Shown here: piece by piece, positions 9,387 through 36,184 of the stretch | How positions within the stretch are numbered: the first letter of the stretch is position 1 | Layout: each line of letters begins with the position of its first letter | NCBI GenBank assembly: GCA_016927835.1 | Contig: JAFGMA010000203.1 | Coordinates: 1 to 64,000 of the forward strand | Origin: Candidatus Zhuqueibacterota bacterium | Lineage (GTDB): Bacteria > Zhuqueibacterota > Zhuqueibacteria > Thermofontimicrobiales > Sulfurfontimicrobiaceae | Length of the DNA: 64,000 nt | Reading direction: 5' to 3' | Made by a program: the position numbers and the translations under genes | The notes under the pieces: model-generated | What the model saw: only the letters and a program-made list of their open reading frames with translations | What the model was told of the DNA's origin: nothing | Database searches by the model: none

Positions 9387-10952
9387 TCAAACGCTGCTGC
9401 TTACATCAATAATTCTGAGAGCCAAAGAATTGCCGGATTCAACAATCTCTCCGCGTGCAATGAGTTTATTTTCAATCATCAATTTCACACTCGATGTTAC
9501 TGGACGCTTCAATTCGATTATTTTTCCGGGTTTGAGTGATAATATTTCTGAAAGGCTTAATTTGATGCGACCCAACTCGACCGGCAGGGAAACTTGAATT
9601 CCTTTCAGCAGGTTATCATCCACGTCATGAGTACCCACCGATTGCGGCATTGCCTTCACTGCTTCGTAGCCAGTAAACGTCAAATTCGCGCGATTCAAAT
9701 CATTACCGAGATCGGACGCCATCATGCGGGGCATGTCACTGAGCTTCGCGCTGATTTCCGACAATCCTTGTTCCCAACTGCCTTCATCTTCTACTTGTAT
9801 TTTACTATTTCCGTTTTCGTGCTTAAATTGACCCTGCCAATAATTCTCGGCATCATTCATCAGCATCAGCCGCACTTCGCCTTCGATTTGCTTGTTTCGA
9901 AGGCGCACGAAAAGTTCGTTAAATTGCAGCAACTGATTCGCTTCGAGTGACATCAATTCATACATCGATAGCTTTATGGAACCGATACGCATAATCAGAT
10001 TCGTCGTGACCCCCATAATTCTCGACAGCCTCTCCTTCAGCGCCTTCTCACGTTCAGCTTGCGGCTTCTTAAGGTGTTTTGTACTCTTCGTCGTATCCAA
10101 TTCCCTAACGAAAAATTCTTTGAAGCTGGCGGGCAGAACAATGCGCAGGAAACCGGTTCCCGATCCTATTGCAATTTTCAGTACGAGCAAAAGAATCTGG
10201 GCATCATCAGCCAGACTCGCTTGCAGGTTGCTGGATTTATCCTCGAATCGGCTGAACAGCAACTTGATCTTCAACTCCTGCTGCAAATGCTCGTTCAAAA
10301 CTTCCAGAAAATGCAGAAAGAGATTTTCCAGTCCGGCGTAGACAACTTCCGGCTGGAGAGGTGCATCAAGATTTGCGCTTCTTCCTGTTATTTGAATCCG
10401 GTGAGTCAACATTTCGATTGAGCGCTCATCGAATTCAACAAAAATTGTCCCTTTGGGGATAACATCGATCTGGGCGATGATTGAATTGCCGGCGTGCGTG
10501 AGGATGAATTGACTGAACGGTGTCTGGTTGGATGATACGGCTTCGAGCGCAATGTTTATTTTTTTTCGGGTAGCTCCTTCAATGGAGGCTATCAATTTAA
10601 AGCGCTCGATTTGAATGATATCTCCGTCGGACAGGGGTGTTTCGATATTCTCTTCAAGATGTTGCCGATTCAAAAACGTACCATTGGTACTGCCAATATC
10701 TTTCAAATAGAAACGCCCTTTGCGCGCAACAATCTGGGTGTGTTCCCGTGACACATATCGATCATTCAACGTGATATCGTTGGTAACAGAGCGACCGATA
10801 GAAATAATGGTTTCTTCCGGTTGAAACACCTGCCGCTGCAACCCATCAACCAGGGTGAGTGACAGCTTTGGTCGGGAAGGCGGTTGCTGCTCTTCGAGTA
10901 TCTTTTTCAAAATTTCACGGCAAAACGCGAGCGTTTCCGGCGCTATCATCAT
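9387..10952 (-). CDS. FHA domain fused to tandem SpoA (FliM/YscQ-like) domains
   Basis: This 521-aa cytoplasmic protein joins two modules. Residues about 28-125 are an FHA phosphothreonine-binding domain with all key motifs: SIGRS (52-55), YVSREHTQI (66-74) and GSTNGTFLN (87-95). Residues about 130-300 resemble the FliM/YscQ middle region. Two SpoA domains follow: a weak one at about 311-385 and a clear one at 448-518 (VSLPVELGRIKLSLSEIL, IARGEI). SpoA domains form the C-ring or sorting platform of flagella and type III secretion. No other such gene is present here. AGGAG lies 9 nt upstream of the ATG. It ends the minus-strand block of kinases and CsgG-like proteins, so it may read their phosphorylation. 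Confidence 0.8.
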   Translation of the reverse strand: MMIAPETLAFCREILKKILEEQQPPSRPKLSLTLVDGLQRQVFQPEETIISIGRSVTNDITLNDRYVSREHTQIVARKGRFYLKDIGSTNGTFLNRQHLEENIETPLSDGDIIQIERFKLIASIEGATRKKINIALEAVSSNQTPFSQFILTHAGNSIIAQIDVIPKGTIFVEFDERSIEMLTHRIQITGRSANLDAPLQPEVVYAGLENLFLHFLEVLNEHLQQELKIKLLFSRFEDKSSNLQASLADDAQILLLVLKIAIGSGTGFLRIVLPASFKEFFVRELDTTKSTKHLKKPQAEREKALKERLSRIMGVTTNLIMRIGSIKLSMYELMSLEANQLLQFNELFVRLRNKQIEGEVRLMLMNDAENYWQGQFKHENGNSKIQVEDEGSWEQGLSEISAKLSDMPRMMASDLGNDLNRANLTFTGYEAVKAMPQSVGTHDVDDNLLKGIQVSLPVELGRIKLSLSEILSLKPGKIIELKRPVTSSVKLMIENKLIARGEIVESGNSLALRIIDVSSSV

Positions 10953-11032: not shown

Positions 11033-11974
11033 TTAGTTCGAGAGGTTGATTTCACCATCCACCACCCACACCTCCAATGGAACCATCGGATCAGTGGTTA
11101 CGAATGCACTGCCCGCTTTGACGCTGATTGTCGGACTTGCCACAGGCTGAATTGAACTCGCTATTCGAAATCCCAACTCCGCAACTGCTCCCGGAGAAGC
11201 GCTGGCATCCTTAAGCGGCAACAATGCAGCGCCTTCGGTTCGATCGTACATCAGGATTCGAACCTGAAAATCTTCGGTATTCAGAACATTAAAATCGATG
11301 TTGCTAAAAGCTTGCGACCGGGCGGTTTTGCGTACGGAAATTGTCGAGAACATGCTGGGTGTGGTCTCGAAAATCAAATCAAGTTGGATGCCGCGTATGC
11401 TATCCAGATTTGCCACTGAAATCGGCAGGTACTTTGCCGAGGTATCCCGCTGCGCTTCAACCGAACCCACGTGGATGACCACCCGCTCGTTTTTTATTGG
11501 CGCCGGCAATAATTCGATCCGGGCTTCGACTACCGCCCCGGCTTCAACCGTCACATTCTGCCGCCCATAAAATGAGATCACTTCGTCGTTCGCTATGGAG
11601 GTTAGCTCGGATTCGCCCCGGTTTTCATACAGCTTTGCAACAAGAAGCTGTTTTTCACCTGCCGGCACAAGCAGTTTGCCTTCGAATTCAGTATCGCTTG
11701 CGGAAAGAGCCACCTCAAGTCGAGCGACGGGTGTTTGGGCGATTGAAGAAACAGATACCGCATCGCTCGAAGAATACACTTCGATCACCACTCTGGTGAA
11801 TGAATGCGCAGGTTTCATTAAATATGTGTTTCCATTCAACTGCCGACCCGCTATTTCGAAATGAAGATTAACCTGACCCGTGGTTTCCGGCGAAGTAGGC
11901 TGCCTGTCACAACTCATATAGCTGATCGATACTAAAAACAGCAGTATAAATAGTAATAATATTTTCGAATTCAT
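11033..11974 (-). CDS. lipoprotein with cohesin-like domain
   Basis: The product (313 aa) has a lipoprotein signal peptide with Cys near residue 22 (ISYMSC). The middle (about residues 30-160) is a beta-rich domain of unknown type. The C-terminal half (from VVIHVGSVEAQRDTSAKYLP) looks like a cohesin-type jelly-roll, with the usual GIQLDL, VRILMYD and VAELGFRI strands. AGAAGG lies about 7 nt before the ATG at 11974; an ATG further upstream at 11998 lacks a site. It sits 47 bp after the large dockerin-containing protein gene and is probably co-transcribed. A cell-surface anchor that binds that dockerin is a reasonable inference. Confidence 0.65.
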   Translation of the reverse strand: MNSKILLLFILLFLVSISYMSCDRQPTSPETTGQVNLHFEIAGRQLNGNTYLMKPAHSFTRVVIEVYSSSDAVSVSSIAQTPVARLEVALSASDTEFEGKLLVPAGEKQLLVAKLYENRGESELTSIANDEVISFYGRQNVTVEAGAVVEARIELLPAPIKNERVVIHVGSVEAQRDTSAKYLPISVANLDSIRGIQLDLIFETTPSMFSTISVRKTARSQAFSNIDFNVLNTEDFQVRILMYDRTEGAALLPLKDASASPGAVAELGFRIASSIQPVASPTISVKAGSAFVTTDPMVPLEVWVVDGEINLSN

Positions 11975-12021
11975 TGGATGACCTTCTGATATGCTCAATA
12001 TTCATCGACTATCTTTTGATA

Positions 12022-15000
12022 CTATCTTATCAGCAACAATTTTTTTGTATCTCGAAAATCAGTGGCATGAAGCTCGTAAAAGTAAATGCCACTGGCAACA
12101 TCACGCCCCAACCGATCTTTTCCATCCCATTTAATCCGAACTGTTCCTGCATCCGCTTTCGAATTATACAGCGTGGCGATAGACTGTCCCATAATGTCAT
12201 ACAGAACTAAGGAAACTTTGCCTGCATTCTGCGGGCATTGAAATACGATTGCCGTTTCTGAATTGAATGGATTCGGAAAATTCTGGTTTAGCACAAACTT
12301 GTTCGGGACGGACGCATTCATCACACCGAACCGCGATTCCGGTGAAGATGCCCGCACGAGTTTATTTTTCGAAGTGAGCGCCAAACCAGCGCTTATTGCC
12401 AATTCTACTGCATCCGTGAGCCCCGACTTGTTCGAAGGCGCAATTGTCAATGAAAACAAGTCGCATCGACCGGGCGGCAAAATCGTATTATTCATGCTAT
12501 AAATAAGAATTCGTGTCTGAGTTCCGTTTTGATGGCTGGCAATCGTCAACTCACTATCATTGCAGTGCGCTTGAACGGATTTGATTTCAATGTGCGCGCT
12601 GTGATCGATTTGAAGTTGCAGGGATTTGACCGGCATCGCGCTGTTCAACGCAACCGGAATCCTGGTTTCACCAGTGGGGGATATCATTGTGCCGAGAAAT
12701 TCCAGTTGAACGCCATCCCGGGAAGCTGTATGAGTTTCCGGTTCGAACGACATGGGAATATTCAAAATCTCGTTGACAATCCATATCACATCATGAATGT
12801 TGATTTGACCATCTGCATAGCAATCAGCAGCTTTGGTCTCGTATTGCGTTGCTTCAGGTCCCTGTTCCAGAATGATTTGTACCAACCGGTCAAGATCAGC
12901 CAGATTAATGGCGGCATCGATTACAATATCACCGATCAAGGGTTCTGCCTGCGATGGCAGCACCAGCAACGACTCACTCGGTTCGGTGAGAATCCGATCC
13001 CCATTGTATGCCCGAACGCGGTACCAGTAGCCGGCGTCTGAATCCGACGGACTATCGGTATAATCTGGCTCGGAAACATTGCCTTCCCAATCAACCAGGA
13101 GCAGCCACTCCCCGGGTTCATTTTCATAATTCAATGCGCGTTCAACCGCGAAACGCGTTCCGCCATACCCGTTCCATGAAAGATTGATACTATTTCCGCT
13201 GCGGGAAAACGTCAAGCCGCTGGGGATTTGTGCCAGTGTATATGCTGCACGCCTATTTGATCCGCCGCTCAAATCACCAGACGCGCTCCGCGCAAACACC
13301 TGGCGGGAATAGCGGGTATTTACTGCAAGATCGGTCTCTCTCCACTCGATTTGATTCGCTGGCAATTCAGCCAGTTGTGTGCCCGCTGAATCGAAAATGA
13401 CATACCCGGTTTCGAGCTCGGTATTATCGCGCCACTGCCATTCGATACTGGAGGTAGATCTGGCAAACGCGGTCAAATTTGTTGGCGGCGTAATAATCGA
13501 TGAGAGTGTGGTTACGGAGATGATATTGCTGGCTTCGGTCAGTATCTTATCGCCGTTAAAACCCATAACGCGATACCAGTACATGGCATCGGGCAATAAT
13601 CCCGTTTCAGTGAATGAAGCATTAATCAGCTTATTTTCCCAAAGGATGATAAATTCCCAATCATGGTACTGATCCTGATATGTGTATGCCCTTTCAATCG
13701 CGTATCGAAAGGCTTTGCTCGCGTTCCACTGCAGACTGATCGACGTCGAGGTGGAGTCTGTTGCGCGTAGATTGGCTGGCGCGTCAGCCAGCGTATACAC
13801 GGCTGCGTAATTGGAGCCGCCGCTCATTTCGCCAGAAGTGCTTTGTGCCACCACCTGGCGCTTGTAGCGCGTGTTAATTGCGAGCCCGGTTTCAATCCAA
13901 CTGGTTTGATCCGCCGGCAGCGTGACGATAGCATTTCCCAGCGAATCCAGGATGACGTAGCCGGTCTCCTGGTCGGTATTATCCATCCATTTCCATTCGA
14001 TTTCAGTGGTTGATCTCGCGCCACCGATCAAATTGGTCGGCGGATTGATGACAGAAAATGGTGTGGTTACCGTCACCATGTTGCTGGGCTCGGTGAGCAT
14101 CTGGTCGCCATTATAACCATAAACGCGATACATGTAAGTACTCGCCGGCTTCAGCCCGGAATCGGTGTAAAAATTTTCTGTCACATTATCGTTCCAGTCG
14201 ACGATGACTTGCATCGATTCCGGCGAGGCGCTCCCAAAATCCGCGCGTGTGATATAAAACCGGGAAGCGCCATGCCCCTGCCATTGAAGCACAACCGAGG
14301 TTGATGTTGTATCAACTGCCCTGAAATTTGTCGGCGGATTTGCCAGAGTATAAACCGTATCGGCATTTGAAGGACCGCTGAGCCTGCCATTGAGCGCCAG
14401 AGCACGTACGTACCGCACATATTGCGTATTCGCGAGTAATCCGGTTTCCAACCATGCTTCGGCATTATCTGAAAGCAAAATACTGTCGTTTTCTGAAAGA
14501 TAGAGGACATAAGCCTTTTCTTCATTGGTATTATCGCGCCATGACCATTCAATTGAAGTAGTAGACCGGGCGGTACCAGTGAAATTCGAAGGAGCCTCGA
14601 AAGCCAGGGTCTTAATTTTAATCACGGCGCCTTCTTCATTAATTTCATTGTGCTGGTTGAAACTCTTGACGCGGTACCAGTACAGCGTATTTTCAGACAA
14701 ATTGCTGTCGCTGAACGCCGTATTTGTCCAGGCAGCGTCCCATCCCTTCAAACTCACCCATTCACCGGGCACACCGCCATTGTCCAGCGCCCTGTCGATC
14801 TCGAATTGAGTGGCGCCATTGCCGGACCATCGCAGCAGAACAGAAGATGAGGTTGTGTCGGCAACGACCAGGTCGGAGGGAGGATTCGCCAGGGTACACG
14901 CCGTGTGTTCTTTTGAAGGATCGCACACAACGCCGGTCGTGGAGGTACCCCTGACACGCCGTGCATAAGCCACATTCGCCAGGAGACCGGTTTCGAGCCA

Positions 15001-17040
15001 ACTGGTGCTGTTGGGCGCCAGGTTGCCGGATACGATTTCCCCGGATTCATTTTCCAGGTAAAAATTGCTTTCATTATTCGAGTTATCTTGCCACTTCCAT
15101 AGAATGGTTGTCGGCGAACTCGATTTTCCGATCAGGTCTGATGGCGGAATCATAACCGCGTCTCCGGTAACGATTCTTACCGCTTTCGAAGCCGCCGAAA
15201 GGATTTGATCACCGTTGTACGCGCTGACACGGTACCAATATGCTGTGATGGGTTTGACGTCGCGATCCTGGTAAGCGGTATCAAAAAGACTGTCGCCCCA
15301 GGTGGCAACAACCTGATAAACGCCCGGCTGTCCGTTGGTATCGAGCGCTTTCTGAACCGCAAACCGGGCAGCGTTCGGACAGGTCCACACGAGATCGATC
15401 GTGCTGTCAGTGACGGAACTGGCGCGTAAATTTGTAGGTGTTTCTGCAAGCGTGAAAACTGAAATCAATTTCGAGGCAGCACTTTCTCCGCTGGTATTTC
15501 CGGCAACCACTTTGCGCCTGACTAACAAATTGGGACTTAGCCCGGTCTCCGTCCAGCTTTGTGTATTGGGATTCAGGTACGGTGAGACAACGTTGTTTGC
15601 ATCATCTTTAACGACAAAATACGTTTCATTATTCGAATTATCGCGCCACCGCCACTGGACATAATCCGTGCCGACTGAGTCTGGCTGCAAATCAAATGGC
15701 GGATCCGGCAGCGGAATTCCGAAGATATTTTGGTAGACATAGCCCGTAAAATTTTCCTGGGGCATGCGGAGGCGATTTGCAGTCCATGCGGAGATCATCA
15801 AATTCGCGTGATTGAAAACATGCGCATGCTCCGTATTGAATTGCACGGTTCCCCCCTGGTCAATGCACCACTCGCCGTCAATCGAATCATTTTTGCTGCT
15901 GAACTGCCTGGCAAAAATATGGTCGAAAGCGGTATCCGGATCGGCTTTGGTGAAACTTCGCCGGCTATACTGGATGACAAATTTGCTGTCGTTATCAGTC
16001 GCAATGCCCGGGCGGCTCAAAATATTGCAGGCGGCGACCGTGATATCGCCGGTCAGCGGCTCTTCTTCCCACGAAAATTTCCTGAAAAAAACATAGTAGC
16101 TGCGCATATTATCATAAAACCGACCATCATGCCACGTAAAAATCAGGTTATTGCTTTCGTCAACAGCCACATCCGGATCGCTGAAAGATACCCAGGTTTG
16201 AGGTACCCACTGATTGACTAAAAATACAGCGCCTAATGCTTTACCAGAATAATGAAATCGGCGCCCGTAAATCATTGATATGCCGGTATCTTCATACGAA
16301 TAACGATTATCGCGCCAAGCTGCGACAAAATTTCCTTCTGCAGAAACCGCGATCCGGGGTTGGTTTGCGGAGCGCGTTTTGCGCTGGTTACCGTCATTTA
16401 GAACGAATTCGGAAAGAACGTTGGTTTCCGCATTATTGACAATCTGCAAAAATCTACAATAGATATCAATCTGCCCCTGGAATTCATTGACCCAGGCAAG
16501 CAAAATCGTATTTTGCGGACTGATGCCGATTGCCGGCTGGTGGACAATTCCCCCGACTTCGGGACTGGTGCCAATGACAAACTCATTTGACAGCGCTTTG
16601 CCGGTCCTGGCAAAAACCCTGGCGTAAATCTGAATATCGGGATAGTTGCGGCGATCATCCCAGATTACCCAAAAATTGCCGGCAGGATCAACCGCTATAT
16701 CGATGGTGCTGTAAACACAGGCAATTGTATCCGGGCATTGATCGACCTGGAATTCAGAGGTCATCGCATCACCATTCGGAGCGAATATCTTTCCATAAAC
16801 TTTTGTGATGCTCTGATATGGCTCATCTACCCACACGATCATATAATTCAAATGCTCGGGATTGGTCGCAATGGCTGGAGCATGAGATCCCCAGCTACGT
16901 GATACGGTTTCATCCACGCGAGCATCCGGGATAATTAGTCCCAGCGTTTGCGAGACGCTCTTCGCAATAAATCCCGGGAAAATAACTGTCAGAATCAAGA
17001 TTGCACACATCATTTTGAAACGTATCAATAGCCTTTTCAT
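12022..17040 (-). CDS. giant secreted FnIII/dockerin protein with type IX-like sorting domain
   Basis: This 1672-aa exported protein has a signal peptide (to about residue 30). Residues about 50-430 contain at least five blade-like repeats of the type VAVDESNNLIFTWHDGRF, probably a beta-propeller. Ten fibronectin-III-like domains follow, arranged as five copies of an about 200-residue pair (for example PPTNLIGGARSTTEIEWKW, then APANLRATDSTSTSISLQW). A dockerin-like pair of calcium loops (ADGQINIHDVIWIVNEIL) lies near 1375-1430, then a cohesin-like domain, then the sorting domain FVLNQNFPNPFNSETAIVF to the end. GAAGGTGA precedes the ATG. It is probably a surface or extracellular adhesin or scaffold. 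The substrate or partner is unknown. Confidence 0.8.
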   Translation of the reverse strand: MKRLLIRFKMMCAILILTVIFPGFIAKSVSQTLGLIIPDARVDETVSRSWGSHAPAIATNPEHLNYMIVWVDEPYQSITKVYGKIFAPNGDAMTSEFQVDQCPDTIACVYSTIDIAVDPAGNFWVIWDDRRNYPDIQIYARVFARTGKALSNEFVIGTSPEVGGIVHQPAIGISPQNTILLAWVNEFQGQIDIYCRFLQIVNNAETNVLSEFVLNDGNQRKTRSANQPRIAVSAEGNFVAAWRDNRYSYEDTGISMIYGRRFHYSGKALGAVFLVNQWVPQTWVSFSDPDVAVDESNNLIFTWHDGRFYDNMRSYYVFFRKFSWEEEPLTGDITVAACNILSRPGIATDNDSKFVIQYSRRSFTKADPDTAFDHIFARQFSSKNDSIDGEWCIDQGGTVQFNTEHAHVFNHANLMISAWTANRLRMPQENFTGYVYQNIFGIPLPDPPFDLQPDSVGTDYVQWRWRDNSNNETYFVVKDDANNVVSPYLNPNTQSWTETGLSPNLLVRRKVVAGNTSGESAASKLISVFTLAETPTNLRASSVTDSTIDLVWTCPNAARFAVQKALDTNGQPGVYQVVATWGDSLFDTAYQDRDVKPITAYWYRVSAYNGDQILSAASKAVRIVTGDAVMIPPSDLIGKSSSPTTILWKWQDNSNNESNFYLENESGEIVSGNLAPNSTSWLETGLLANVAYARRVRGTSTTGVVCDPSKEHTACTLANPPSDLVVADTTSSSVLLRWSGNGATQFEIDRALDNGGVPGEWVSLKGWDAAWTNTAFSDSNLSENTLYWYRVKSFNQHNEINEEGAVIKIKTLAFEAPSNFTGTARSTTSIEWSWRDNTNEEKAYVLYLSENDSILLSDNAEAWLETGLLANTQYVRYVRALALNGRLSGPSNADTVYTLANPPTNFRAVDTTSTSVVLQWQGHGASRFYITRADFGSASPESMQVIVDWNDNVTENFYTDSGLKPASTYMYRVYGYNGDQMLTEPSNMVTVTTPFSVINPPTNLIGGARSTTEIEWKWMDNTDQETGYVILDSLGNAIVTLPADQTSWIETGLAINTRYKRQVVAQSTSGEMSGGSNYAAVYTLADAPANLRATDSTSTSISLQWNASKAFRYAIERAYTYQDQYHDWEFIILWENKLINASFTETGLLPDAMYWYRVMGFNGDKILTEASNIISVTTLSSIITPPTNLTAFARSTSSIEWQWRDNTELETGYVIFDSAGTQLAELPANQIEWRETDLAVNTRYSRQVFARSASGDLSGGSNRRAAYTLAQIPSGLTFSRSGNSINLSWNGYGGTRFAVERALNYENEPGEWLLLVDWEGNVSEPDYTDSPSDSDAGYWYRVRAYNGDRILTEPSESLLVLPSQAEPLIGDIVIDAAINLADLDRLVQIILEQGPEATQYETKAADCYADGQINIHDVIWIVNEILNIPMSFEPETHTASRDGVQLEFLGTMISPTGETRIPVALNSAMPVKSLQLQIDHSAHIEIKSVQAHCNDSELTIASHQNGTQTRILIYSMNNTILPPGRCDLFSLTIAPSNKSGLTDAVELAISAGLALTSKNKLVRASSPESRFGVMNASVPNKFVLNQNFPNPFNSETAIVFQCPQNAGKVSLVLYDIMGQSIATLYNSKADAGTVRIKWDGKDRLGRDVASGIYFYELHATDFRDTKKLLLIR

Positions 17041-17588: not shown

Positions 17589-18716
17589 TTAGAATCGGAA
17601 TGAAAATGCAATTGTAGTTTGCCATCCGTTGAGAGTAATTGTGTTGGCTTCTGCTTCGCCGGTCAAATACATCAGATCGGTACGAACGATCATCGTTTCG
17701 GAAAACTTGGCATAAAATTCCGGTCCCGAATGAATTGTCCAGGCATCCGCTACCTGAATATCACTTTTGCCAAATTTGTTGAAACCGAATTTCCCTCCGA
17801 AAGAAAAGGATGGATTAAGATTAAACATAAATTGCGCTTGGCTCAAGAAGCTGTTATCAATAAAATTACGACCGATTAACAGCGCTCTCCCCAGGTCACC
17901 GGAAACACCATTTTCCTGTTTGATAATGTTATTCACGAAAATTGAAAACGAGATAGGATAGGTATGGTAATGAAAAAGCGCCTCGATTTCAGTCTGGCTG
18001 CCTTCGGTTAAAAATTGTTCGCCATCGAGCTTATCAACGCCGAATCGGGTGTGAAGCACATTGGCTCTGATGAAAATGCTATCCAATTCAATATCCACTC
18101 CGCCGTGGATGGATAATTCATCCCCCGGTTTGAATTTTATCTCGCTATCGGTCTGGTAGTTGTATTCGCCTTTGAAAAGGTAGCCCACGCCAAATCCGAT
18201 GGTGAAGGTTCCGCCAAAATTTCTGGCGTAAACCGCGCCCAGGTCGGCATCAAAGCCTTCTCCGTAACGCTTCACCTTGAAACCGAGTACTGTTTCATAC
18301 AGGGCATTGGCAACCTGATTTTCTGATTCGTTAAAAGAATTTTTGCCGAAGGGCATTCCCAATCCCAGGCTCAACATCACGGAATTTTCAGCCAGTCGCC
18401 AGAAGGCTTTAAATTTGCCATCCGTCATACCGTTCAATTTATAGTCTGACTCCGATTTGAGCATCGAAGACGCATTTGAAGTGCTGAAGTACACATCGAT
18501 ATTTTGAGTAACCGGGCGCAAAACCGAAAACGGGACAACGAGCTGGGAGATTTTCTGCTCTGTACCACCCTGCTTAACCGCCCAACTGCGATAGGATAAA
18601 TAGGTTGAAATCGCGGCATTGTACGCGGGGTAATTGAATTGTGGTTGAGCAACCGCCGTCGTACCGAGCACGCCAACCACGCACAAGGCAATAATGATCG
18701 AATAATTTTTCATCAT
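17589..18716 (-). CDS. outer-membrane beta-barrel protein, unknown function
   Basis: The product (375 aa) starts with a signal peptide (MMKNYSIIIALCVVGVLGTT, AVAQ cleavage). The mature part is a barrel-like series of amphipathic strands (LGAVYARNFGGTFTIGFGVG, FSFGGKFGFNKFGKSDI) ending in the aromatic strand WQTTIAFSFRF, the usual outer-membrane insertion signal. It resembles the generic large-pore or transporter-like barrels found next to secreted proteins in this superphylum, but no family is recognised. It lies 98 bp downstream of the CsgG-like lipoprotein gene on the same strand, which suggests an envelope complex. Confidence 0.7.
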   Translation of the reverse strand: MMKNYSIIIALCVVGVLGTTAVAQPQFNYPAYNAAISTYLSYRSWAVKQGGTEQKISQLVVPFSVLRPVTQNIDVYFSTSNASSMLKSESDYKLNGMTDGKFKAFWRLAENSVMLSLGLGMPFGKNSFNESENQVANALYETVLGFKVKRYGEGFDADLGAVYARNFGGTFTIGFGVGYLFKGEYNYQTDSEIKFKPGDELSIHGGVDIELDSIFIRANVLHTRFGVDKLDGEQFLTEGSQTEIEALFHYHTYPISFSIFVNNIIKQENGVSGDLGRALLIGRNFIDNSFLSQAQFMFNLNPSFSFGGKFGFNKFGKSDIQVADAWTIHSGPEFYAKFSETMIVRTDLMYLTGEAEANTITLNGWQTTIAFSFRF

Positions 18717-18814
18717 ATAATTAATCCATTGCTAAAACAGAATTCAATCGCCTCTAACACTTGCAGCTTTTCTACTGATTTGATATTTACTTCATTCACC
18801 TCAGGCACTTTGGA

Positions 18815-20110
18815 TCATTTTGATTCGCTTTTCGGCAACGTGCCTTTAACCACCAGCGTTCCTTTTTTGCCGGAGAGTGTCGGTCGAACAGTCACTTTAT
18901 CGTCCTGATTCACCGGTAAAAAGCTGCTGCCGACTTCAAGCGCACTCACTTCCAGCCGATCGAGTGGGCTTATTGCATCGATTTCGCGCACAATCTGGAT
19001 GAGCCGCTCGCTTGAAACCGGCGCGATCTGCATTTCGAGCAACTTCTCGTTTGCCATCTGAAATCCCGGATCCAATTTAACTGCCCGCTTATAGGCATTT
19101 CTTGCGCGCACCAGATCACCGGTATCCTCATAATCCAATCCCTCGGCAAATGCCAGGAAAGCCATGAAACTTTCGGTCGGCACTTTTTTGATCTCTTCAA
19201 TTTCGCTGAAAGACAGCCGGATGCCCATTTCGTTGATCAATTGAAGTACCAGTTTTTTCTCGATCTTGAAAAAATCACTGAGCCTGCCGTCTGCGCTGGC
19301 TTCCATCGATGCCCGGGAACCGAGTTCAGATTCAACAACTGCTGCAATAATCTGCAGGTAGCCTTCCTCTGAAGTAATGAAGCCGCCTTTGACCAATTTT
19401 TTGGCGCCGAGAAGCCTGCCCAGGCGCGGGGCACTTTGCACATCGAACAGCTCGGATTGACTGAGTTTCAGCTCTTGCATCAACTGCTGGAGCTTTTGGC
19501 GCTCGACAATTTTCAATTTTCGAACTTTTGACAGATCCGTTGTCAGCATCACCGCCAGCCCTTTTTCCAACGGATTTAATTTCTGCCATTGATTGATATT
19601 CTTGAAATATAAAATTGCAATCGAATTTTCGGGGATGTCCTGCACCATTAATTTTTGCTCATCTTCGATTGCCTTTCGCAGGTCGGCGGTGATTTTTAAT
19701 TTCATCAGCGCATTCATCCGATCCTGGATACGTTTTCGGATCGAACTGAACTTATTCAGGTGAGTTATTCGCTTATATGCATCCAGGGCTTTATCGAACG
19801 AACGTTGCGCTTCGTAGCTCAAGCCGAGATATAAAATGGTCATCCCATCATTCGGGTTCAGGGTATTGGCTTCTCGCAATTTGGTGATTGCGGGAGCATA
19901 ATTTTTAAGCTCATAATAGACAATGCCCAGATCGCGCTTGATGCGATAATCATTCGGACTCAGGCGTTCAGCAGCGAGGAATTTTTCAATGGCTGAACGG
20001 TAGCTGCGTTGGCGCACCAACGATTTGGCTTCCCAATAGCTATATGTTGCACAGCCGCAGAGGATTGCGATGAAAATGACCAACATTAGCAGCAAAAATT
20101 TCGATTTCAA
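18815..20110 (-). CDS. TPR/CsgG-like lipoprotein
   Basis: The product (431 aa from the chosen start) is a lipoprotein with TPR repeats (about residues 30-130) and a CsgG/FlgO-like domain (about 160-285: SIAILYFKNI, VMLTTDLSKVRKLKIVERQK, LGRLLGAKKLVKGGF). A further TPR-like pair lies near 320-360. CsgG-type domains occur in outer-membrane lipoproteins that form secretion pores or accessory rings. The open frame reaches 20170, but only a TTG begins it. The TTG at 20110 has GGAG 6 nt upstream and gives an ideal lipoprotein signal (MKSKF, then AILCGC, Cys20). It is the second of three CsgG-like genes in this block. Confidence 0.75.
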   Translation of the reverse strand: MKSKFLLLMLVIFIAILCGCATYSYWEAKSLVRQRSYRSAIEKFLAAERLSPNDYRIKRDLGIVYYELKNYAPAITKLREANTLNPNDGMTILYLGLSYEAQRSFDKALDAYKRITHLNKFSSIRKRIQDRMNALMKLKITADLRKAIEDEQKLMVQDIPENSIAILYFKNINQWQKLNPLEKGLAVMLTTDLSKVRKLKIVERQKLQQLMQELKLSQSELFDVQSAPRLGRLLGAKKLVKGGFITSEEGYLQIIAAVVESELGSRASMEASADGRLSDFFKIEKKLVLQLINEMGIRLSFSEIEEIKKVPTESFMAFLAFAEGLDYEDTGDLVRARNAYKRAVKLDPGFQMANEKLLEMQIAPVSSERLIQIVREIDAISPLDRLEVSALEVGSSFLPVNQDDKVTVRPTLSGKKGTLVVKGTLPKSESK

Positions 20111-20313
20111 AATTGACTCCAGGCATTTTTTTAATTTTCGAACCAGCCCGGACGACAGGTCCAGGCGCAATATTCATTTATCAAGGCAGCATGCACTTAT
20201 TCAACCGTATAATGTACTTGTGTCAAATAAAATTAGCGAGTTACAAAATCTGAAGCGCAACGCACACTGAATTCGATATTTCAATTCAGTTCGTGCAGTC
20301 GAGCACTTAGAGC

Positions 20314-20430
20314 TTTATTTTACAAATACGTTGATGATGCCAAAGAGATTAGACAGGATAACAGGATGGACAAGATAAATAACATCCTGTTTATAAATGA
20401 GTTGATAGCTCCGATTAACTTTTTGCTAAT
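20314..20430 (-). repeat. GxxExxY 3'-end flank, copy 2
   Basis: This copy of the 115-bp repeat (ACAGGATAACAGGATGGACA) overlaps the last codons of the adjacent pseudogene. It shows that the repeat is the downstream flank of a GxxExxY gene. Confidence 0.75.
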
Positions 20431-20792
20431 TCTCTTACTTTTCTTTTTATTTCAACTTTTTGCTCACCAAAGTTGATGAATAGACCAACATCTTTTCCGG
20501 TTGCAGTCAGGTAATTCACTAACTAAACTTCATGAGCTTTAATGAACCTTCGAACTGATTTCAATTCTAAAATAACTATATCCTCAACAACCACATCGGC
20601 TACAAACTCTCAGACCATCTCAGTGTCATAATAAACCGTGATCGGATTCTGAGCTAATGCCCGAAATCCAACCTTTTTCAGTTCAATCATCAGGCATTTT
20701 TCGTAAACCGATTCTAAGAAGCCATAGCCCATTTTGTTGTAAACTCGATAGGCACATCCTATTATTCTCTACGTCAACTCTTTATGTTTCAT
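20415..20792 (-). pseudogene. GxxExxY-family protein, pseudogene with three nonsense codons
   Basis: Reading the minus strand from the ATG at 20792 gives a full-length 125-codon GxxExxY protein (family of small PD-(D/E)XK-like proteins of unknown role). Recognisable segments are YRVYNKMGYGFLESVYEKCL, VADVVVEDIVILELKSV and NYLTATGKDVGLFINFGEQK. Three stops interrupt it at codons 8 (TAG), 61 (TGA) and 90 (TAG), with no frameshift. In functional relatives these sites are typically Glu, Gly and Gln. The flanks carry the usual ACAGGAT-rich sequences, including GGATTTACATGATCAACAGG (minus strand) upstream. Decay by point mutation alone suggests recent inactivation. Confidence 0.85.
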
Positions 20793-20916: not shown

Positions 20917-21978
20917 TTAGGAGATAAGAGGTTCAAGAACCGCGATCTTCTTTTTTGCAGGCAGATAATTCGGATCATATTTCAACGCTTCCTGGAATTT
21001 TGCATGCGCTTTCTTGTATTCCTCTTTGTCGAGAAAACTCAATCCTTCTGAATAGGAAAGAATCGCTTCTAACGATTTATTTTCAACTTTCTTGATTTCC
21101 TTCACTTCGGTCTTCGAAAGAATCACGTCCAGATCTTTGGTAATTTTCAGTGCCAGTTTTTTTTCCATTTCGATGAATTTTTTCGCATTGTCGGTTATCT
21201 CTTCAGCCTTGATTAATTCACCGGTTTCAACCTTAATCAAACGCGCGTCAAGCCGCATCAAATCGCCGATCTTGGCAATTCCTCCGAACAGCATCGAATG
21301 CACTCCCAGCAATTTCCCGATCCTGACCGCGGTTTTCTGATCGAATACCTTATTTTTTTCCAGTTCGATCTCATCCATAATGAACTGAATACGTTCGCGC
21401 TCGATCACTTTGAGCCTTGTGGCTTTGGACAAATCTGTAATCAGCATCTGGGCGATGCCTTTGCCCATAGGCTCCCACTTTTCTTTATCATCTCCGATTG
21501 AATTGTTATCGAAATCCAGGATAGCAATCGTCTGAACGCCGGGATCCGCGCGTTCATCGATGGTCATATTTCCCTTTTTTTCCTTTTTCACTTCATAATA
21601 AATTCGCATCAATTTTGGGGGGACGTTTTCCGGATTGAATTCAATGCTTGGATCGAGATCGACAATTTTCTCGACCATTTCTTTCGCCTGGTCGTAATAT
21701 CCCTTGGCAACCATCGAAAAGCCAAGTAATTGATAGACGATAATCTGTTGATTGGACGTCAATCCTTTCTCTTCGGAAATCACTTGAAGCGTTTTTATGG
21801 CATCATCAAAACGTGCTGAGGTATAATGTCTGCGCGCCTGATCGATTTGCATTTCAAATTTTGTTTGCGCAAACGATTCTGAAAATGGCATTATTGCCGC
21901 ATGCACCAGCACGAATGTGCCAGCCAGGATAAATCCCAATCGGAATTTACTCACGGTTCCCGCATGTTTAAGCTTCAT
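20917..21978 (-). CDS. TPR/CsgG-like exported protein
   Basis: The product (353 aa) has an N-terminal signal segment ending at SFAQ (about residue 39), TPR-like helices (about 45-125), a CsgG/FlgO-like domain (about 146-260: TIAILDFDNNSIGDD, MLITDLSKATRLKVIERERI, IGKLLGVHSMLFGGI) and a C-terminal TPR (AILSYSEGLSFLDKEEYKKA). It has no lipobox, so it is likely periplasmic. The start is the ATG at 21978 because AGGAGG lies 7 nt upstream; a GTG two codons earlier would overlap that site. It follows the PEGA kinase gene by 56 bp on the same strand, suggesting one transcript with the kinases. Confidence 0.78.
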   Translation of the reverse strand: MKLKHAGTVSKFRLGFILAGTFVLVHAAIMPFSESFAQTKFEMQIDQARRHYTSARFDDAIKTLQVISEEKGLTSNQQIIVYQLLGFSMVAKGYYDQAKEMVEKIVDLDPSIEFNPENVPPKLMRIYYEVKKEKKGNMTIDERADPGVQTIAILDFDNNSIGDDKEKWEPMGKGIAQMLITDLSKATRLKVIERERIQFIMDEIELEKNKVFDQKTAVRIGKLLGVHSMLFGGIAKIGDLMRLDARLIKVETGELIKAEEITDNAKKFIEMEKKLALKITKDLDVILSKTEVKEIKKVENKSLEAILSYSEGLSFLDKEEYKKAHAKFQEALKYDPNYLPAKKKIAVLEPLIS

Positions 21979-22034
21979 CGTCACACCTCCTGAATAGTAA
22001 TGGATGAATGGATTTTATTTCGATGAATCGAACG

Positions 22035-23987
22035 CTACTCCTGAGTCGCCTTCACCAGCGTAAATTTCACGGTACAATGTTTTCCGGGGAGAACCTGAAT
22101 CTCCTGTTCGCCCTGAATTGATTTATATTCAAATTTGGATATGTCGATTTTATAGGTGCCGGCAGGGAGTTCAATTTCTCCGCTGAATTGCATGTCTTCT
22201 CCTGTGCTGTCCTTAAATGGCTTGTCATTAATGAGTACCAGGCCCCTGATAGGATTTCCAAATTCATCAACAATGACAATACCGACTTTGCCGGTTTCCG
22301 GTTGTGGCGGTTGAGGCACGCGAGAGAGTTTCCGATGCAGCAGCGTCTGCTTGCCGGCGGACACACGAACCTTCTCCGTCAACGATTCATAGCCTGCGAG
22401 TGTGAAACTAATCGTGTAAAGCGCTGCCTTCAAAGAAGTGATAACACAATTGGTTTTTTTCGAGTAAGGGCGATCATTGAGCGAAATGTTTGCGCCCGGT
22501 GGTTCCGATTTCAATTCGAGGCTGCCATAAGCCGGCTCAACCTTTTCCTCGACAGGCTCGGTGTGAATTTTTTTCTTTTCGGGCGGCAGCACCACAGCCG
22601 GCGTTGAATCAGCCGGTTGAAGCTTTGGTGCAATTTCGAGAGTTGCCGAAGCCAAATGCACCGAATCTGACCAGGAGAGAAAATCAGATTTTTGAATCGA
22701 GATGAAATAGGTGCCGTACGCAAATTCCTCAAGAGTAAGCGGTGTTTCTCCATCGATTCGCTGCCCGTTGACGGAAACAGATGCCCCTGGCGGATTCGAA
22801 CTGATGATCAATCTTCCTTCGTCAATCGTCTCGCCTTTCCTGGTTGCCAATTGATAAATCAGATAAGCCAGCAGCATGAAAACAACGATGCCGAACCATT
22901 TGACCGCTCTCAATGAAGTATCATCCATATTTTGCGAGCGGCGCTCTTTGACGGCTCGCTGGCTCTTTTGGGTACTGGACGTTTCAGAAACCATCTCAGT
23001 GGCACGTGGCGTTGAAACCTGATCACCTGACGGGAAATCGATTGCCGGCTCCGAATTCTTGCTTGCGATGACGGTTTCTGATAAATCTTCGGAAACGGAA
23101 GCGATGGTAGGTTCGGAAAAATGGCTTTTGCGGGTATAATTTTCCCACTCATCGAGATCATTCAGCAAGTCTTGTGCAAATTGATAGCGCTTCCGGGGTG
23201 CTTTTTCGATACATTTCATCACGATGGGTTCCAGACCATCCGGAATGTCTGCCTTGATCGTATGCAACGGCGGCGCGGGTGTCGCTATTTGTTTGTGGCA
23301 AATTGAAAGCGGATCGCCGCTGAACGGTGGCTGACCGGTGAGCGCCTCGTAAAGGACAATTCCGAGTGAATAAATATCAGCCCGATGATCGAGTTCGTCG
23401 CCTTGCACTTGTTCCGGCGACATATATTTTGGAGTGCCCATCACCGTATCTTTGACCGTCAATTGGGAAAAATCCCCGCTCTTGACCAACCCGAAATCGG
23501 TCAGGATTGCGTTGCCCGATTCATCGAACATGATATTCGCCGGCTTGATATCTCTGTGGATGAAGTTGGTGACGGTTTTATGACTGTGCATATAACTGAG
23601 CGCTGAACTCATATCACTGGCGATTTTCAGCCATTGGGCAAGCGGTAATCCCTGCCGGTTTTCGCGCAGACGCAATATCTGCTGAAGCGTGGTGGGCAGG
23701 TAATTCATCACAAAATAATGAATGCCGTTTTCCGAGCCGCTATCGAATATTTTAATGATATTGGGGTGCTCGAACATCGCCACAACTTTTGCCTCCCGGA
23801 TGAAACGCCTCACCAGGTCTTCATCTTCGGCGGCAAACTCCGAAAGCACTTTTACCGCTACTTTGCGCTTCAACTGGGTTTGGATTCCGAGGTATACCGT
23901 TGCGAAGCCGCCTTTTCCCAGGGGTTTGTCGCCGATAATCTTGAAGCGTCCGTTGGCGAGTTCTTTCCCCAGCAAATTATCTTTCAA
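22035..23987 (-). CDS. Hanks-type Ser/Thr kinase with PEGA domains
   Basis: The product (650 aa) is a membrane Ser/Thr kinase. Residues 1-285 are an intact kinase: GKGGFATVY loop (24-32), Lys46 in VAVKV, HRDIKPAN (144-151), DFG (164-166), and the activation-segment end SPEQ. A cytoplasmic linker is followed by one membrane helix (about 363-381). Outside are two PEGA domains (about 391-450 and 488-545) and a third beta domain (566-645). PEGA domains often bind surface or wall components. The start is a TTG with AGGAG 7 nt upstream. It is 25 bp downstream of the TPR kinase gene. Together with the pseudokinase and the PP2C gene, it forms a likely phospho-signalling unit. Confidence 0.88.
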   Translation of the reverse strand: MKDNLLGKELANGRFKIIGDKPLGKGGFATVYLGIQTQLKRKVAVKVLSEFAAEDEDLVRRFIREAKVVAMFEHPNIIKIFDSGSENGIHYFVMNYLPTTLQQILRLRENRQGLPLAQWLKIASDMSSALSYMHSHKTVTNFIHRDIKPANIMFDESGNAILTDFGLVKSGDFSQLTVKDTVMGTPKYMSPEQVQGDELDHRADIYSLGIVLYEALTGQPPFSGDPLSICHKQIATPAPPLHTIKADIPDGLEPIVMKCIEKAPRKRYQFAQDLLNDLDEWENYTRKSHFSEPTIASVSEDLSETVIASKNSEPAIDFPSGDQVSTPRATEMVSETSSTQKSQRAVKERRSQNMDDTSLRAVKWFGIVVFMLLAYLIYQLATRKGETIDEGRLIISSNPPGASVSVNGQRIDGETPLTLEEFAYGTYFISIQKSDFLSWSDSVHLASATLEIAPKLQPADSTPAVVLPPEKKKIHTEPVEEKVEPAYGSLELKSEPPGANISLNDRPYSKKTNCVITSLKAALYTISFTLAGYESLTEKVRVSAGKQTLLHRKLSRVPQPPQPETGKVGIVIVDEFGNPIRGLVLINDKPFKDSTGEDMQFSGEIELPAGTYKIDISKFEYKSIQGEQEIQVLPGKHCTVKFTLVKATQE

Positions 23988-24012: not shown

Positions 24013-26706
24013 TCAGAGCATGGGCATGGTTTTATCGATATCGGTGATAATTTCTCGTGCTGTGGCGTAGCGATTGTTGGGACTTTTTTCCATCATTTTA
24101 TTAACAATATTTTCCAATTCAACGGGCAGATTATTGTCATACGAGGTGATTCGCCTGGGTTTCGCCTGGATAATTTTGACGATGATCGATGCGATGCTAT
24201 CGCCTTTGAACGGTCTGACACCGGTGAGCATTTCGTAAAAAACCACGCCCAGCGAAAATATATCCGAGCGTCCATCAATCTCCTTGCCTTCGATTTGCTC
24301 CGGCGACATATAGCTGGGCGTGCCCAGGCTGCTGCCAGCCTGTGTAAGCGTTCCCGAAGAGTCAGCCATTTTCGCGACCCCAAAATCAACAATTTTAATC
24401 AAACCGTTTTTCATGACCATGATATTCGATGGTTTGATGTCCCGATGAACGATCCCCCGAGAATGTGCTTCTGCCAATGCGCTGCAAGCCTGACGCACAA
24501 GATTCGCAGCTTCTTTGGGGGGAAGCAATTTGCGTTGCTGCAGCAAATGCAGCAAATTAATTCCTTCGATATATTCCATTGAAATAAAACTTCTGGTATC
24601 GATTTTTACAATATCAAAAATTGTAACGATATTCGGATGATTCAATTTTCCGGCAGATAACGCTTCACGCTCGAATCGGCGTTTCAATTTTTCCAACTCC
24701 ATTTTGCCCAAATCCAAATCCATCCGAATTTCTTTCAGAACGACTGTCCGGTCCATTTTGTGATCATAAGCTTTGTAAACCTTCCCCATGGCGCCTTTGC
24801 CAATTTCGCTTTTCACCTCGTAGCGATCCTGGATTAAAGGATTCACCGAGTCTTGTTCTGTACTGAGAAGTCGTGTTTTCTCCTCAATTAATTGTTGATC
24901 GCCGGCAGGAGCCATTGCAGCCGGTTCTTTGCTTTCACCGCTTCGCTGAGAGCCGAGTACTGTTTTCTGCTGCGCCTGTTCTTCATCCGCAGCGATGGTT
25001 TTAATCTGACCGGATGGTTTACGCTTTGCTTTCACCGGGGGAACGCGATGTTCCGCTTTTGCCTGCGAAACCCGAGGCGCTGGTTGCTGACGCCGAGATC
25101 GATTTACCAACAATAGAATTATAACCAGCAAAGCAGCCGCGCCGCCTCCGGCAAATTCCCAATGATCCATTACGACATTCAGCCAGCCCGATTCAGCAGG
25201 CGCGCCGGTTTGAGAGCGCAGCGCTTTGAGCCGCTGATTCACATCACGATATGTTGGTTCTGCCCCCAAAATGCTTTCGAATTCTGCCAGGGCTTCCTTC
25301 ACCTCGCCGACCGATTCTTTTTGGCGTCCCACTGCATAATGTTTAGCCAGCACAGCAGGTTGAAAATCCGGGGTGATTTCCAGCGACTTGTCCAACAAAT
25401 TTGAAGCGAATGCCCAATTTTCAAGATTTAGCATGGACATTCCCCTGGCGTAATTCAACAGCATTTGCGCTTCATTGAGGGATGGTTCAATCGATAGCGC
25501 GGCTTCGAAGTGTTTGATGGCATTTTCCCATTGATTTTGCTCTATTGCCGCCTTGCCCTGGTTGACGAATGCCCGGGCATCCGTCGTTGTTTCCGGCGGT
25601 TTTTCAGTCGTTGCGGTATCCAGGGGAGTGGTGACGGAAGCTGGCTGTGCATCATACCTCGTTCTGGCATGGCGAAGTTTTTGAGCAACATCTTTATAAT
25701 TCGAATCCTTGCTGTTGATCTGGTTCAAAAGGCGTATGGCAAGCTGCCATTGCTGCGCCTTAATCGCCTGCTCCGCTTTCTGATATTCCGTTTCCAGTTC
25801 CTGTGTCGTTTCGAGCCTCGATTTTATTTGGCTTAATTCAGCCTGGTTCTTGCCATATTCCAGCGCCCGATTGATATAGCCCAATGCCAAATCCGGGTTC
25901 TGTTCCGAAGTGGCAAGCCGGGCGTAATATTGCGCTAGCTGATTATCAACGTCATCCAGCCTGGCATGTCCCGGAGCCTTTTGTGCCAGTTGGTCTCTTA
26001 ATTTAATTGCGGAGTCAATCTCGCCTGCATTGATTGCCTCTGTTGCCTGTCTGGCAAGCTCATCCACATCGTTCATTGATTTGAGTTTGGAAGCGGCTTG
26101 TTTCGCCGGTTCGTGATTCGAATCCTTCACAAGTGCCTGTTCATACGCGGCAAGGGCTTCTTTTGTATTGCCCTGGGCGAGTTTGATTTTTCCATCATAA
26201 TAAAAATAATCCGCTTCGGATAAATTTTTTCGATACTTAGTCAAAGCGGAGGCAGCTTTTGAAAATTCGCTTTCGCCCAAGTAAAGCGCAATCGCCTTGG
26301 CAAATAGCTCAGTATTCCGTTTAAGCGTCAACGAGGTTTCGTAGGCGGTTGCAGCATTCGTTCGTTCGCCCAGTTCCAGATATGAATTGCCAATATATTT
26401 CCAGGCATTACTTCCATTGGGATTTCGAAGTGGATTAATTCCGATTTCTGCGCGGAATTCTTCGATTGCTTTTTTGTACTCTCCTTGTTCAAAATAAATC
26501 TCCCCGAGTTTCAAATGTGCAGCTTCATACTCCGGATAAATCTCCAGTGTCTTTTTCAAGCCTTCAACCTTTTCAGTCCTGGATTTGGATTTCAGCGCCT
26601 CTATGAAATGCTTTTTTGCCTCTTGCCGGGCATCCTGGGCGACTGCGGTTTCCAGGCTTAAAAGGAGGAATTGTGTGATAAAAAATATACTGATGACTTG
26701 CCTCAT
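24013..26706 (-). CDS. TPR-transmembrane-Ser/Thr kinase
   Basis: The product (897 aa) has reversed domain order. A signal peptide (MRQVISIFFITQFLLLSLET) precedes about 500 residues of TPR repeats, then a membrane helix (about 521-536, AAALLVIILLLVN), a linker, and a C-terminal kinase (about 628-897). The kinase is intact: GKGAMGKVYKAYD, VVLKEI lysine, HRDIKPSNIM, VDFGVAK, SPEQ. The TPR part is thus probably periplasmic and the kinase cytoplasmic, unlike PknB. The start at 26706 has GAGGT 8 nt upstream; an upstream ATG (26769) overlaps the previous gene and lacks a signal sequence. It pairs with the pseudokinase gene ahead of it, 49 bp away. Confidence 0.85.
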   Translation of the reverse strand: MRQVISIFFITQFLLLSLETAVAQDARQEAKKHFIEALKSKSRTEKVEGLKKTLEIYPEYEAAHLKLGEIYFEQGEYKKAIEEFRAEIGINPLRNPNGSNAWKYIGNSYLELGERTNAATAYETSLTLKRNTELFAKAIALYLGESEFSKAASALTKYRKNLSEADYFYYDGKIKLAQGNTKEALAAYEQALVKDSNHEPAKQAASKLKSMNDVDELARQATEAINAGEIDSAIKLRDQLAQKAPGHARLDDVDNQLAQYYARLATSEQNPDLALGYINRALEYGKNQAELSQIKSRLETTQELETEYQKAEQAIKAQQWQLAIRLLNQINSKDSNYKDVAQKLRHARTRYDAQPASVTTPLDTATTEKPPETTTDARAFVNQGKAAIEQNQWENAIKHFEAALSIEPSLNEAQMLLNYARGMSMLNLENWAFASNLLDKSLEITPDFQPAVLAKHYAVGRQKESVGEVKEALAEFESILGAEPTYRDVNQRLKALRSQTGAPAESGWLNVVMDHWEFAGGGAAALLVIILLLVNRSRRQQPAPRVSQAKAEHRVPPVKAKRKPSGQIKTIAADEEQAQQKTVLGSQRSGESKEPAAMAPAGDQQLIEEKTRLLSTEQDSVNPLIQDRYEVKSEIGKGAMGKVYKAYDHKMDRTVVLKEIRMDLDLGKMELEKLKRRFEREALSAGKLNHPNIVTIFDIVKIDTRSFISMEYIEGINLLHLLQQRKLLPPKEAANLVRQACSALAEAHSRGIVHRDIKPSNIMVMKNGLIKIVDFGVAKMADSSGTLTQAGSSLGTPSYMSPEQIEGKEIDGRSDIFSLGVVFYEMLTGVRPFKGDSIASIIVKIIQAKPRRITSYDNNLPVELENIVNKMMEKSPNNRYATAREIITDIDKTMPML

Positions 26707-26755
26707 CCCCGTTGACCTCGTATAAATGTTTTTACAATGACCCACCTGTTCATAA

Positions 26756-29189: not shown

Positions 29190-29885
29190 TTAGGGCAAAT
29201 CTGGCGGTATTGGCAATGGCTCATCTTTGGGCGTCGGACCAGGCGATGGGTTGTTGCCATTCGAACCGGCTAATATCGCTGCGCTGCTAACAATTGCCAC
29301 GCCACCGGCAGCAGACGCCCATACCCACCATTTTTTATACCATCGAGCCGGCTTTGTATCTTCGGATTGCTGCTCCAATAGCGATTCGGGTTTCTGGTCA
29401 ATTTCTTCAAATATTTTTTCCACAATCTGTCGTGCTACATTTTCAATTGTCTCATACTGAAATGAGTCTTTTGTGCCCGTATGATCGTCTGAAATTTCAA
29501 AGCTGGTTGAAGTTTCGACGCTGAAAGCTTTCAATGTGATTGTAAAGAAATCGCCCACCTTTACAATCGAGCCGGCTACCACCCATTGGGTTCCGATCAA
29601 TTGTCCCACGCGCAATATTTCATCATTTTCAGTGAACGGACCGATAAGCTCCGTTCGCTCTGCGAGTTTTCCGAGAATTTCCTCGCGGTGCATGATACTC
29701 AGCCGACTTTCCAGACGCAATTGATCGCGCAGGTATTCGGTGATGGTTTCGGCAACCGTAACATCGATTCCGGTTGCATCCAGAGCGAGCACTGCCAGGC
29801 TAATCGGCTCCTCTGTTTGAGAAAAACTCATTGGTTGCATTACGACCAGAAGGAACAAAGTTGCTAGTTTACAAAACGCTTTCAT
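29190..29885 (-). CDS. CsgG/FlgO-like exported protein with C-terminal membrane helix
   Basis: The product (231 aa) starts with a signal peptide (MKAFCKLATLFLLVVMQ, cleavage near SFSQ). A CsgG/FlgO-like domain follows (ISLAVLALDATGI, LRLESRLSIMHREEILG, VGQLIGTQWVVAGSIVKVGD). Near the C-terminus there is a hydrophobic helix (WWVWASAAGGVAIVSSAAIL) and a Pro-rich tail. The ATG at 29885 is preferred because AAGGGA is 9 nt upstream, while the earlier ATG (29894) touches that site. It is the smallest of three CsgG-like genes in the block and lies upstream of the two TPR kinase-type genes. A role as an envelope sensor or pore accessory is inferred only. Confidence 0.7.
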   Translation of the reverse strand: MKAFCKLATLFLLVVMQPMSFSQTEEPISLAVLALDATGIDVTVAETITEYLRDQLRLESRLSIMHREEILGKLAERTELIGPFTENDEILRVGQLIGTQWVVAGSIVKVGDFFTITLKAFSVETSTSFEISDDHTGTKDSFQYETIENVARQIVEKIFEEIDQKPESLLEQQSEDTKPARWYKKWWVWASAAGGVAIVSSAAILAGSNGNNPSPGPTPKDEPLPIPPDLP

Positions 29886-29947
29886 CTTTCTCATTCCCTT
29901 CAGATGATACTAAAAGCTTGTTTACATGGCGAAGACATAAACGATCG

Positions 29948-35950: not shown

Positions 35951-36080
35951 TTCTTTCCTCCGCGAATCCTTGATAATTGAAGTCACAGGGAGCAGCACCT
36001 TCTGAAATCGGTGATGGGTCAATTCCAAATCCTGCCCGGATTGAAGGAATTTGTAAACAAGGCTGCTCTCCCGGTTGAGT

Positions 36081-36184
36081 TTAGGAGGTGAGATAAAATA
36101 GCCTGGACATTTGGTAAAAAATAATTTTGATAACTAGCAACTTAAGAAATTTAAATGTGTAACTTATTTTATCCCAACTCCTTA
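36081..36184 (+). repeat. inverted-terminal repeat element, copy C
   Basis: The ends are TTAGGAGGTGAGATAAAATA and TTATTTTATCCCAACTCCTT. The core (TGGACATTTGG, then AATTTTGATAACTAGCAACT) matches copies A and B. The last bases of the element supply the stop codon of the PP2C gene (TAA at 36182-36184 on the minus strand). Confidence 0.8.

Follow-up and report, generated by a model that had tools for sequence, protein, structure and literature searches.

The SpoA and C-ring proteins that we met in a literature search are described solely in flagella and T3SSs. The SctQ/YscQ/Spa33 sorting-platform protein is a FliM-FliN-like fusion, and the tandem SpoA domains of Spa33 exemplify how such domains pair within one chain and can oligomerise (PMC4832279). 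FHA domains also have a place in these systems: SctD/YscD/CdsD carry cytoplasmic FHA domains (PMC1084347), and in Chlamydophila the Ser/Thr kinase PknD phosphorylates CdsD (PMC2765968). FHA domains are further found in the kinase-FHA adaptors OdhI/GarA and FhaB, which are without SpoA or FliM-like parts. The literature search returned no FHA-SpoA fusion.

The window, which is the whole stretch of 64,000 nucleotides analysed, belongs to a 7.58-Mb metagenome-assembled genome (G000) that is 93% complete. It encodes a protein, hereafter FHA-SpoA, in which an FHA domain precedes FliM- and FliN-like parts:

9387..10952, minus strand: predicted FHA-FliM-FliN fusion protein (FHA-SpoA, P0001), 521 aa
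10608..10805, minus strand: FHA domain, residues 50-115, with GRS at 53-55, SREH at 68-71, NGT at 90-92 and N95
9864..10541, minus strand: FliM-like middle domain and first SpoA domain (SpoA1), residues about 138-363
10377..10388, minus strand: site of the lost GGxG motif, TGRS at residues 189-192
9402..9611, minus strand: second SpoA domain (SpoA2), FliN type, residues 448-517

An AGGAG sequence sits a few bases 5′ of the ATG start. The FHA domain was recognised by Pfam at residues 50-115 (E 3.6e-20; 72.6 bits vs a cut-off of 20.7), and the YscD_cpl family also matches this region, with 41.3 bits vs 72.6 for PF00498. As in SctD/YscD/CdsD, the FHA domain lies in a type-III-related protein beside Ser/Thr kinases, whereas theirs is part of an inner-membrane ring protein and this one is carried by a soluble FliM-FliN-like protein. 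FHA-SpoA has no convincing transmembrane helix (one stretch near residue 251 is borderline) and is therefore expected to be cytoplasmic. The structures of GarA and OdhI are among its PDB matches, and as in OdhI/GarA and FhaB the FHA domain is expected to read phosphothreonine made by Hanks kinases. At the other end of the chain, Pfam FliMN_C (SpoA) matches residues 448-517 (E 5.1e-22; 78 bits vs a cut-off of 23.8). Three further models match below their cut-offs, namely Pfam FliM at residues 122-279 (E 6.7e-4; 20.1 vs 27 bits), NCBIfam SctQ TIGR02551 at residues 303-515, spanning both SpoA domains (62.7 vs 100.8 bits), and NCBIfam FliN at residues 447-519 (61.5 vs 84 bits).

A full-length homologue with the same architecture and 29% identity is encoded by G056, a 100% complete genome of a different genus and the only other genome of the window's family examined. 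Because it recurs in a second genus, chance and assembly error can both be ruled out. The canonical phosphothreonine-binding FHA motifs GRS, SREH and NGT are identical in the two proteins. Within the phylum, to which the search was confined, FHA-SpoA is carried by these two genomes only, both of which are metagenome-assembled. The initial annotation, which described an FHA domain fused to SpoA domains of the FliM/YscQ type, is borne out by the Pfam profile matches to FHA and SpoA2 and by profile comparison (hhalign) for SpoA1.

The middle of the protein and its two SpoA domains point to a FliM/FliN origin. Residues about 138-363 are collinear with residues 78-301 of FliM from the same phylum (hhalign with 21 FliM rows over 223 columns; P 1.2e-8). 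Among 36 comparisons with decoys, which were unrelated proteins of the cluster, the best gave P 0.008. The diverged SpoA1 was detectable by profile comparison only, and its position in the tree is unreliable because of long branches, the domain being too diverged to place. Residues 440-521 matched FliN best (hhalign P 2.9e-14, vs 9.8e-7 for FliM), and SpoA2 of both homologues fell inside the FliN clade of the tree with 98/98 support. A structural model of residues 122-395 had a mean pLDDT of 65.5, with values mostly between 70 and 89 in the middle domain and low values in the SpoA1 part, and its 25 best PDB matches in Foldseek were all FliM, FliY or CheC. As the alignment behind this model contained FliM rows, the FliM-like fold is partly circular, and so supported rather than proven; prediction from the two sequences alone gave a mean pLDDT of 33. 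In the flagellated relative G066 the fliM and fliN genes overlap (L016:444-1436 and 1423-1935), so that a fusion is readily imagined. Judged from sequence, a fliM::fliN fusion in which the FHA domain replaces the CheY-binding tail is the best reading of FHA-SpoA, and flagellar relatives within the phylum are the likely source of its FliM and FliN parts.

Several features of flagellar FliM are missing from what is here a single fused chain. FliM contacts FliG through the GGxG loop of its middle domain. This conserved loop is a target of che mutations (PMC4938800), and it is lost in both homologues, where the alignment has TGRS in FHA-SpoA and a QRPE region in G056. The N-terminal CheY-binding motif of FliM, which is of the LSQxEIDALL type in relatives, is also absent, its place being occupied by the FHA domain. 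With the tail replaced and GGxG lost, FliM's contacts for flagellar partners are gone. Like SctQ/YscQ/Spa33, FHA-SpoA has two tandem SpoA domains in one chain; unlike them, it matches the SctQ model below cut-off only, combines a full FliM-like middle domain with an FHA domain, and stands without export genes. An internal start for a SpoA2-only product, as in SctQ, was considered and rejected, since no start with a ribosome site is conserved in both genera. Genome searches revealed no free SpoA partner, FHA-SpoA being the sole SpoA protein of G000 and its homologue that of G056. A CheC-type phosphatase was likewise rejected, as the motif [D/S]xxxEN is not kept: EN is present at residues 209-210, but the position four residues before is Y205 (K in G056). 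Going by the features that define FliM and SctQ, FHA-SpoA belongs to neither; it derives from proteins of the FliM-FliN kind.

Genome searches for FlhA, FliP and YscJ/FliF gave no match in G000 or G056, whereas the same search found FlhA in 33 of the 82 genomes of the phylum. Given these absences and the flagellated relatives, the family seems either to have lost its flagellum or never to have possessed one. Among the window proteins tested, which comprise most of the larger ORFs, there is no flagellar or T3SS gene. The earlier description of the gene as lying outside any flagellar or T3SS locus agrees both with its surroundings and with the searches of its genome. Neither of the outcomes that it had named as refuting, a T3SS in the genome with this gene as its sorting-platform protein or a SpoA match failing in profile searches, has occurred.

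FHA-SpoA is the last of eleven genes that have the same order in the window and in G056. The ten genes that precede it are given below in that order, together with two that are found in the window version only:

36182..37093, minus strand: PP2C-type protein phosphatase (Pfam PP2C), first gene of the cluster; 48% identity in G056
34235..36028, minus strand: fibre-like (mosaic adhesive trimer N-domain) protein, window version only; NCBIfam Bdello_MAT_N, E 2.8e-9, below cut-off
29948..34102, minus strand: secreted Ig-like/FlgD_ig protein (Pfam), window version only; none between the PP2C and CsgG-like genes in G056
29190..29894, minus strand: protein with CsgG-like N-terminal domain and probable transmembrane helix near residue 191; 41% in G056
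26756..28888, minus strand: TPR pseudokinase, HFD for HRD and GGF for DFG; 32% identity in G056 (L032:645-2633)
24013..26769, minus strand: Hanks kinase with N-terminal TPR region predicted periplasmic and transmembrane helix near residue 537; HRD and DFG intact; 37% in G056
22035..23987, minus strand: Hanks kinase with transmembrane helix (near residue 359) and PEGA domains (Pfam); GKGGFATV, VAVK, HRD and DFG intact; 44% in G056
20917..21984, minus strand: CsgG/TPR protein 2 (Pfam CsgG); 59% in G056
18815..20170, minus strand: CsgG/TPR protein 1 (Pfam CsgG and TPR); 44% in G056
17589..18716, minus strand: predicted outer-membrane beta-barrel with signal peptide and C-terminal RF; no Pfam family; 41% in G056
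12022..17040, minus strand: giant secreted surface protein with fn3 repeats, dockerin and FlgD_ig/Por_Secre sorting tail (Pfam); 32% over 1709 columns in G056
11033..11998, minus strand: lipoprotein with probable cohesin-like fold; 27% identity to its G056 counterpart

The two extra genes follow the PP2C gene (29948-36028) and are without counterpart in G056. The genes flanking the cluster are not common to the window and G056 either, bar weak matches among common regulator domains. Three Hanks-type kinase genes lie on the FHA-SpoA strand, in line with the kinases noted there in the initial annotation; two are active-looking and one is a pseudokinase. The HFD and GGF lesions of the latter are the same in both genera, and it is therefore a conserved pseudokinase. 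The TPR pseudokinase adjoins the active-looking TPR kinase in the two genera, making a conserved kinase/pseudokinase pair. The spacing between the lipoprotein gene and FHA-SpoA is also similar (80 bases in the window and 73 in G056), while gaps of 301, 548 and 746 bp within the window's cluster make several transcripts possible.

The outer-membrane part of the cluster (CsgG, barrel, giant protein and lipoprotein) occurs without FHA-SpoA in other families of the phylum, and the fusion would therefore have joined an older envelope module in the window's family, as an addition to it or as its partner. Relatives of the beta-barrel protein are present in 51 of the 82 genomes. A contig scan with this protein as query found the sister MAG only. 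The arrangement of CsgG/TPR proteins next to a beta-barrel-like protein is repeated throughout the phylum (window 17589-21984; loci L050-L054). The G056 lipoprotein has a Pfam Cohesin match below cut-off (E 0.005), and in the window the cohesin-like lipoprotein adjoins the giant surface protein with its dockerin-like match (11033-17040), a possible outer-membrane anchoring pair. In G056 a gene for a single-TM protein with a TonB/AgmX-like C terminus (L033:1774-3027) comes after FHA-SpoA; it was rejected as a cluster member, as its three relatives in G000 all sit on other contigs.

We give an even chance to the likeliest reading, in which FHA-SpoA derives from the flagellar switch and serves a kinase/phosphatase system that senses the envelope, as its cytoplasmic phosphothreonine reader, output protein and scaffold. 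FliM (middle domain and SpoA) and FliN (SpoA), whose genes are neighbours in flagellated relatives, would have merged into a single chain, with an FHA domain that reads phosphothreonine in place of FliM's CheY-binding tail. The lineage would then have lost its flagella and retained the fusion as the output protein of the eleven-gene envelope system, whose genes we infer to function together as a putative operon. The kinases' TPR and PEGA regions, for which the helix positions predict a periplasmic location, may monitor the outer-membrane module formed by the CsgG/TPR proteins, the predicted beta-barrel, the cohesin-like lipoprotein and the giant surface protein. The kinases would phosphorylate threonines on themselves, on the pseudokinase or on another target, and the FHA domain would dock on these phosphothreonine sites. 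The SpoA1-SpoA2 pair could then gather these complexes in a platform at the inner membrane, and PP2C would reverse platform formation and reset the switch.

This reading is favoured by the FHA motifs kept in both genera, the eleven collinear genes, the presence of kinases, pseudokinase and PP2C in both, and the loss of GGxG. The likeness of the middle domain and SpoA1 to FliM and of SpoA2 to FliN, the overlapping fliM and fliN of G066, the missing FlhA, FliP and YscJ/FliF, the short distance to the lipoprotein gene in both genomes and the ability of tandem SpoA domains to pair and oligomerise also speak for it. It is weakened by the restriction of FHA-SpoA to two MAGs, the occurrence of the outer-membrane part elsewhere without it, the gaps in the cluster and the lack of a free SpoA2 partner. 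The Shigella Spa33 SpoA1-SpoA2 construct, which is mostly monomeric on its own (PMC4832279), also counts against it. The initial annotation had suggested a phosphorylation-gated ring or platform in another machine. The link to kinases and PP2C has gained support, since the order of the eleven genes is kept in another genus where the flanks differ; a ring, rotary or secretion machine has not, with GGxG lost, no free SpoA partner and no conserved internal start. A better fit than a ring belonging to a machine is a scaffold or adaptor that serves envelope-sensing phospho-signalling. We regard as doubtful the bolder proposal that a C-ring-type assembly survives here without flagellum, export apparatus or FliG, as a phosphorylation-gated oligomeric FHA-FliM-FliN platform under the inner membrane that would couple the Hanks kinases to the outer-membrane CsgG/barrel/giant-adhesin system.

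The cluster suggests that phosphate-based signalling has taken over an old motor part. A lineage in which no flagellar export genes were detected, and which keeps a fused FliM-FliN apparently controlled by phosphothreonine, would be a clear example of motor parts put to such use, and FHA-SpoA makes testable a C-ring-type assembly without FliG, FliF or export genes. If true, a phosphorylation-gated platform would be a new machine for signalling, made of motor parts. Envelope kinase clusters that contain CsgG-like proteins are widespread in this little-studied phylum, and they too gain a testable function.

Other motor-related genes occur in the phylum. Eight genomes (G026, G027, G028, G030, G068, G069, G071 and G073) have a conserved five-gene operon:

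L079:8378-13683 (also L076, L077 and L080-L084): FliF-FliG/MotA/MotB operon, with genes for a FliF_C-TM-FliG fusion (first), a secreted protein of about 380 aa, a TPR lipoprotein, MotA and MotB

Carriers of the operon include flagellated genomes as well as G027, which is 99% complete and has neither FlhA nor SpoA. Its gene content looks like that of a rotor-stator motor without a flagellum. G000 has a lone FliF-FliG fusion gene (L058:19-1863; G000:C155:1549-3390) without adjoining MotA or MotB, and a MotB of the operon type was not found in this genome.

The main rival to the scaffold reading sees in FHA-SpoA no more than an adaptor or inhibitor that depends on phosphothreonine, of the OdhI/GarA or FhaB type; the FHA domain would bind a kinase or its substrate and the FliM/FliN part a single target, without a higher-order platform. 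It owes this standing to the mostly monomeric state of Spa33 SpoA1-SpoA2 and to the missing extra SpoA2 protein; the resemblance of the FHA domain to GarA/OdhI and the want of a conserved internal start are in its favour too. Both SpoA domains and the whole FliM-like middle domain are nevertheless kept at 29% identity, seemingly beyond the need of an adaptor, and we consider this explanation possible rather than probable. That FHA-SpoA is a decaying flagellar remnant which adjoins the cluster fortuitously and has no function in common with it would suit a gene at the cluster edge in a family without flagella whose relatives are flagellated, yet the ORF is intact with a ribosome site, its canonical FHA motifs are kept, and its position and strand agree between the two genera despite differing surroundings; we judge this very unlikely.

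The lone FliF-FliG gene raises another alternative, in which FHA-SpoA would form the FliM/FliN-like ring of an export-less rotor, with the FHA domain providing kinase control. The encoded protein of 614 aa has weak FliF-C similarity, transmembrane helices and clear FliG domains, and its relatives share an operon with MotA and MotB in the eight other genomes. Nonetheless G056 has FHA-SpoA without FliF-FliG, the two genes are unlinked in G000, the FliG-binding GGxG is lost, and G027 has the complete rotor operon but no SpoA protein at all. FliF-FliG was rejected as a partner of FHA-SpoA on its absence from G056, its unlinked position and its missing MotB; the first and last of these also mean that the motor operon is not tied to FHA-SpoA, and we hold the rotor explanation to be improbable. 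Close to refuted is the idea that FHA-SpoA is the SctQ sorting-platform or C-ring protein of a T3SS or flagellum missed by assembly or searches. The sub-cut-off SctQ match to both SpoA domains and the incomplete assembly of G000 would allow it, but the empty FlhA, FliP and YscJ/FliF searches extend to the fully complete G056, and the FlhA search was positive in 33 other genomes of the phylum; a hidden T3SS or flagellum was rejected on these grounds.

An orphan FliN-like SpoA protein of 305 aa was also observed in G015:C62 (L075:8925-9842), in a genome that is 94% complete and has no FlhA. Its gene lies downstream of those for a MinD/FlhG-like ATPase and a two-component pair.
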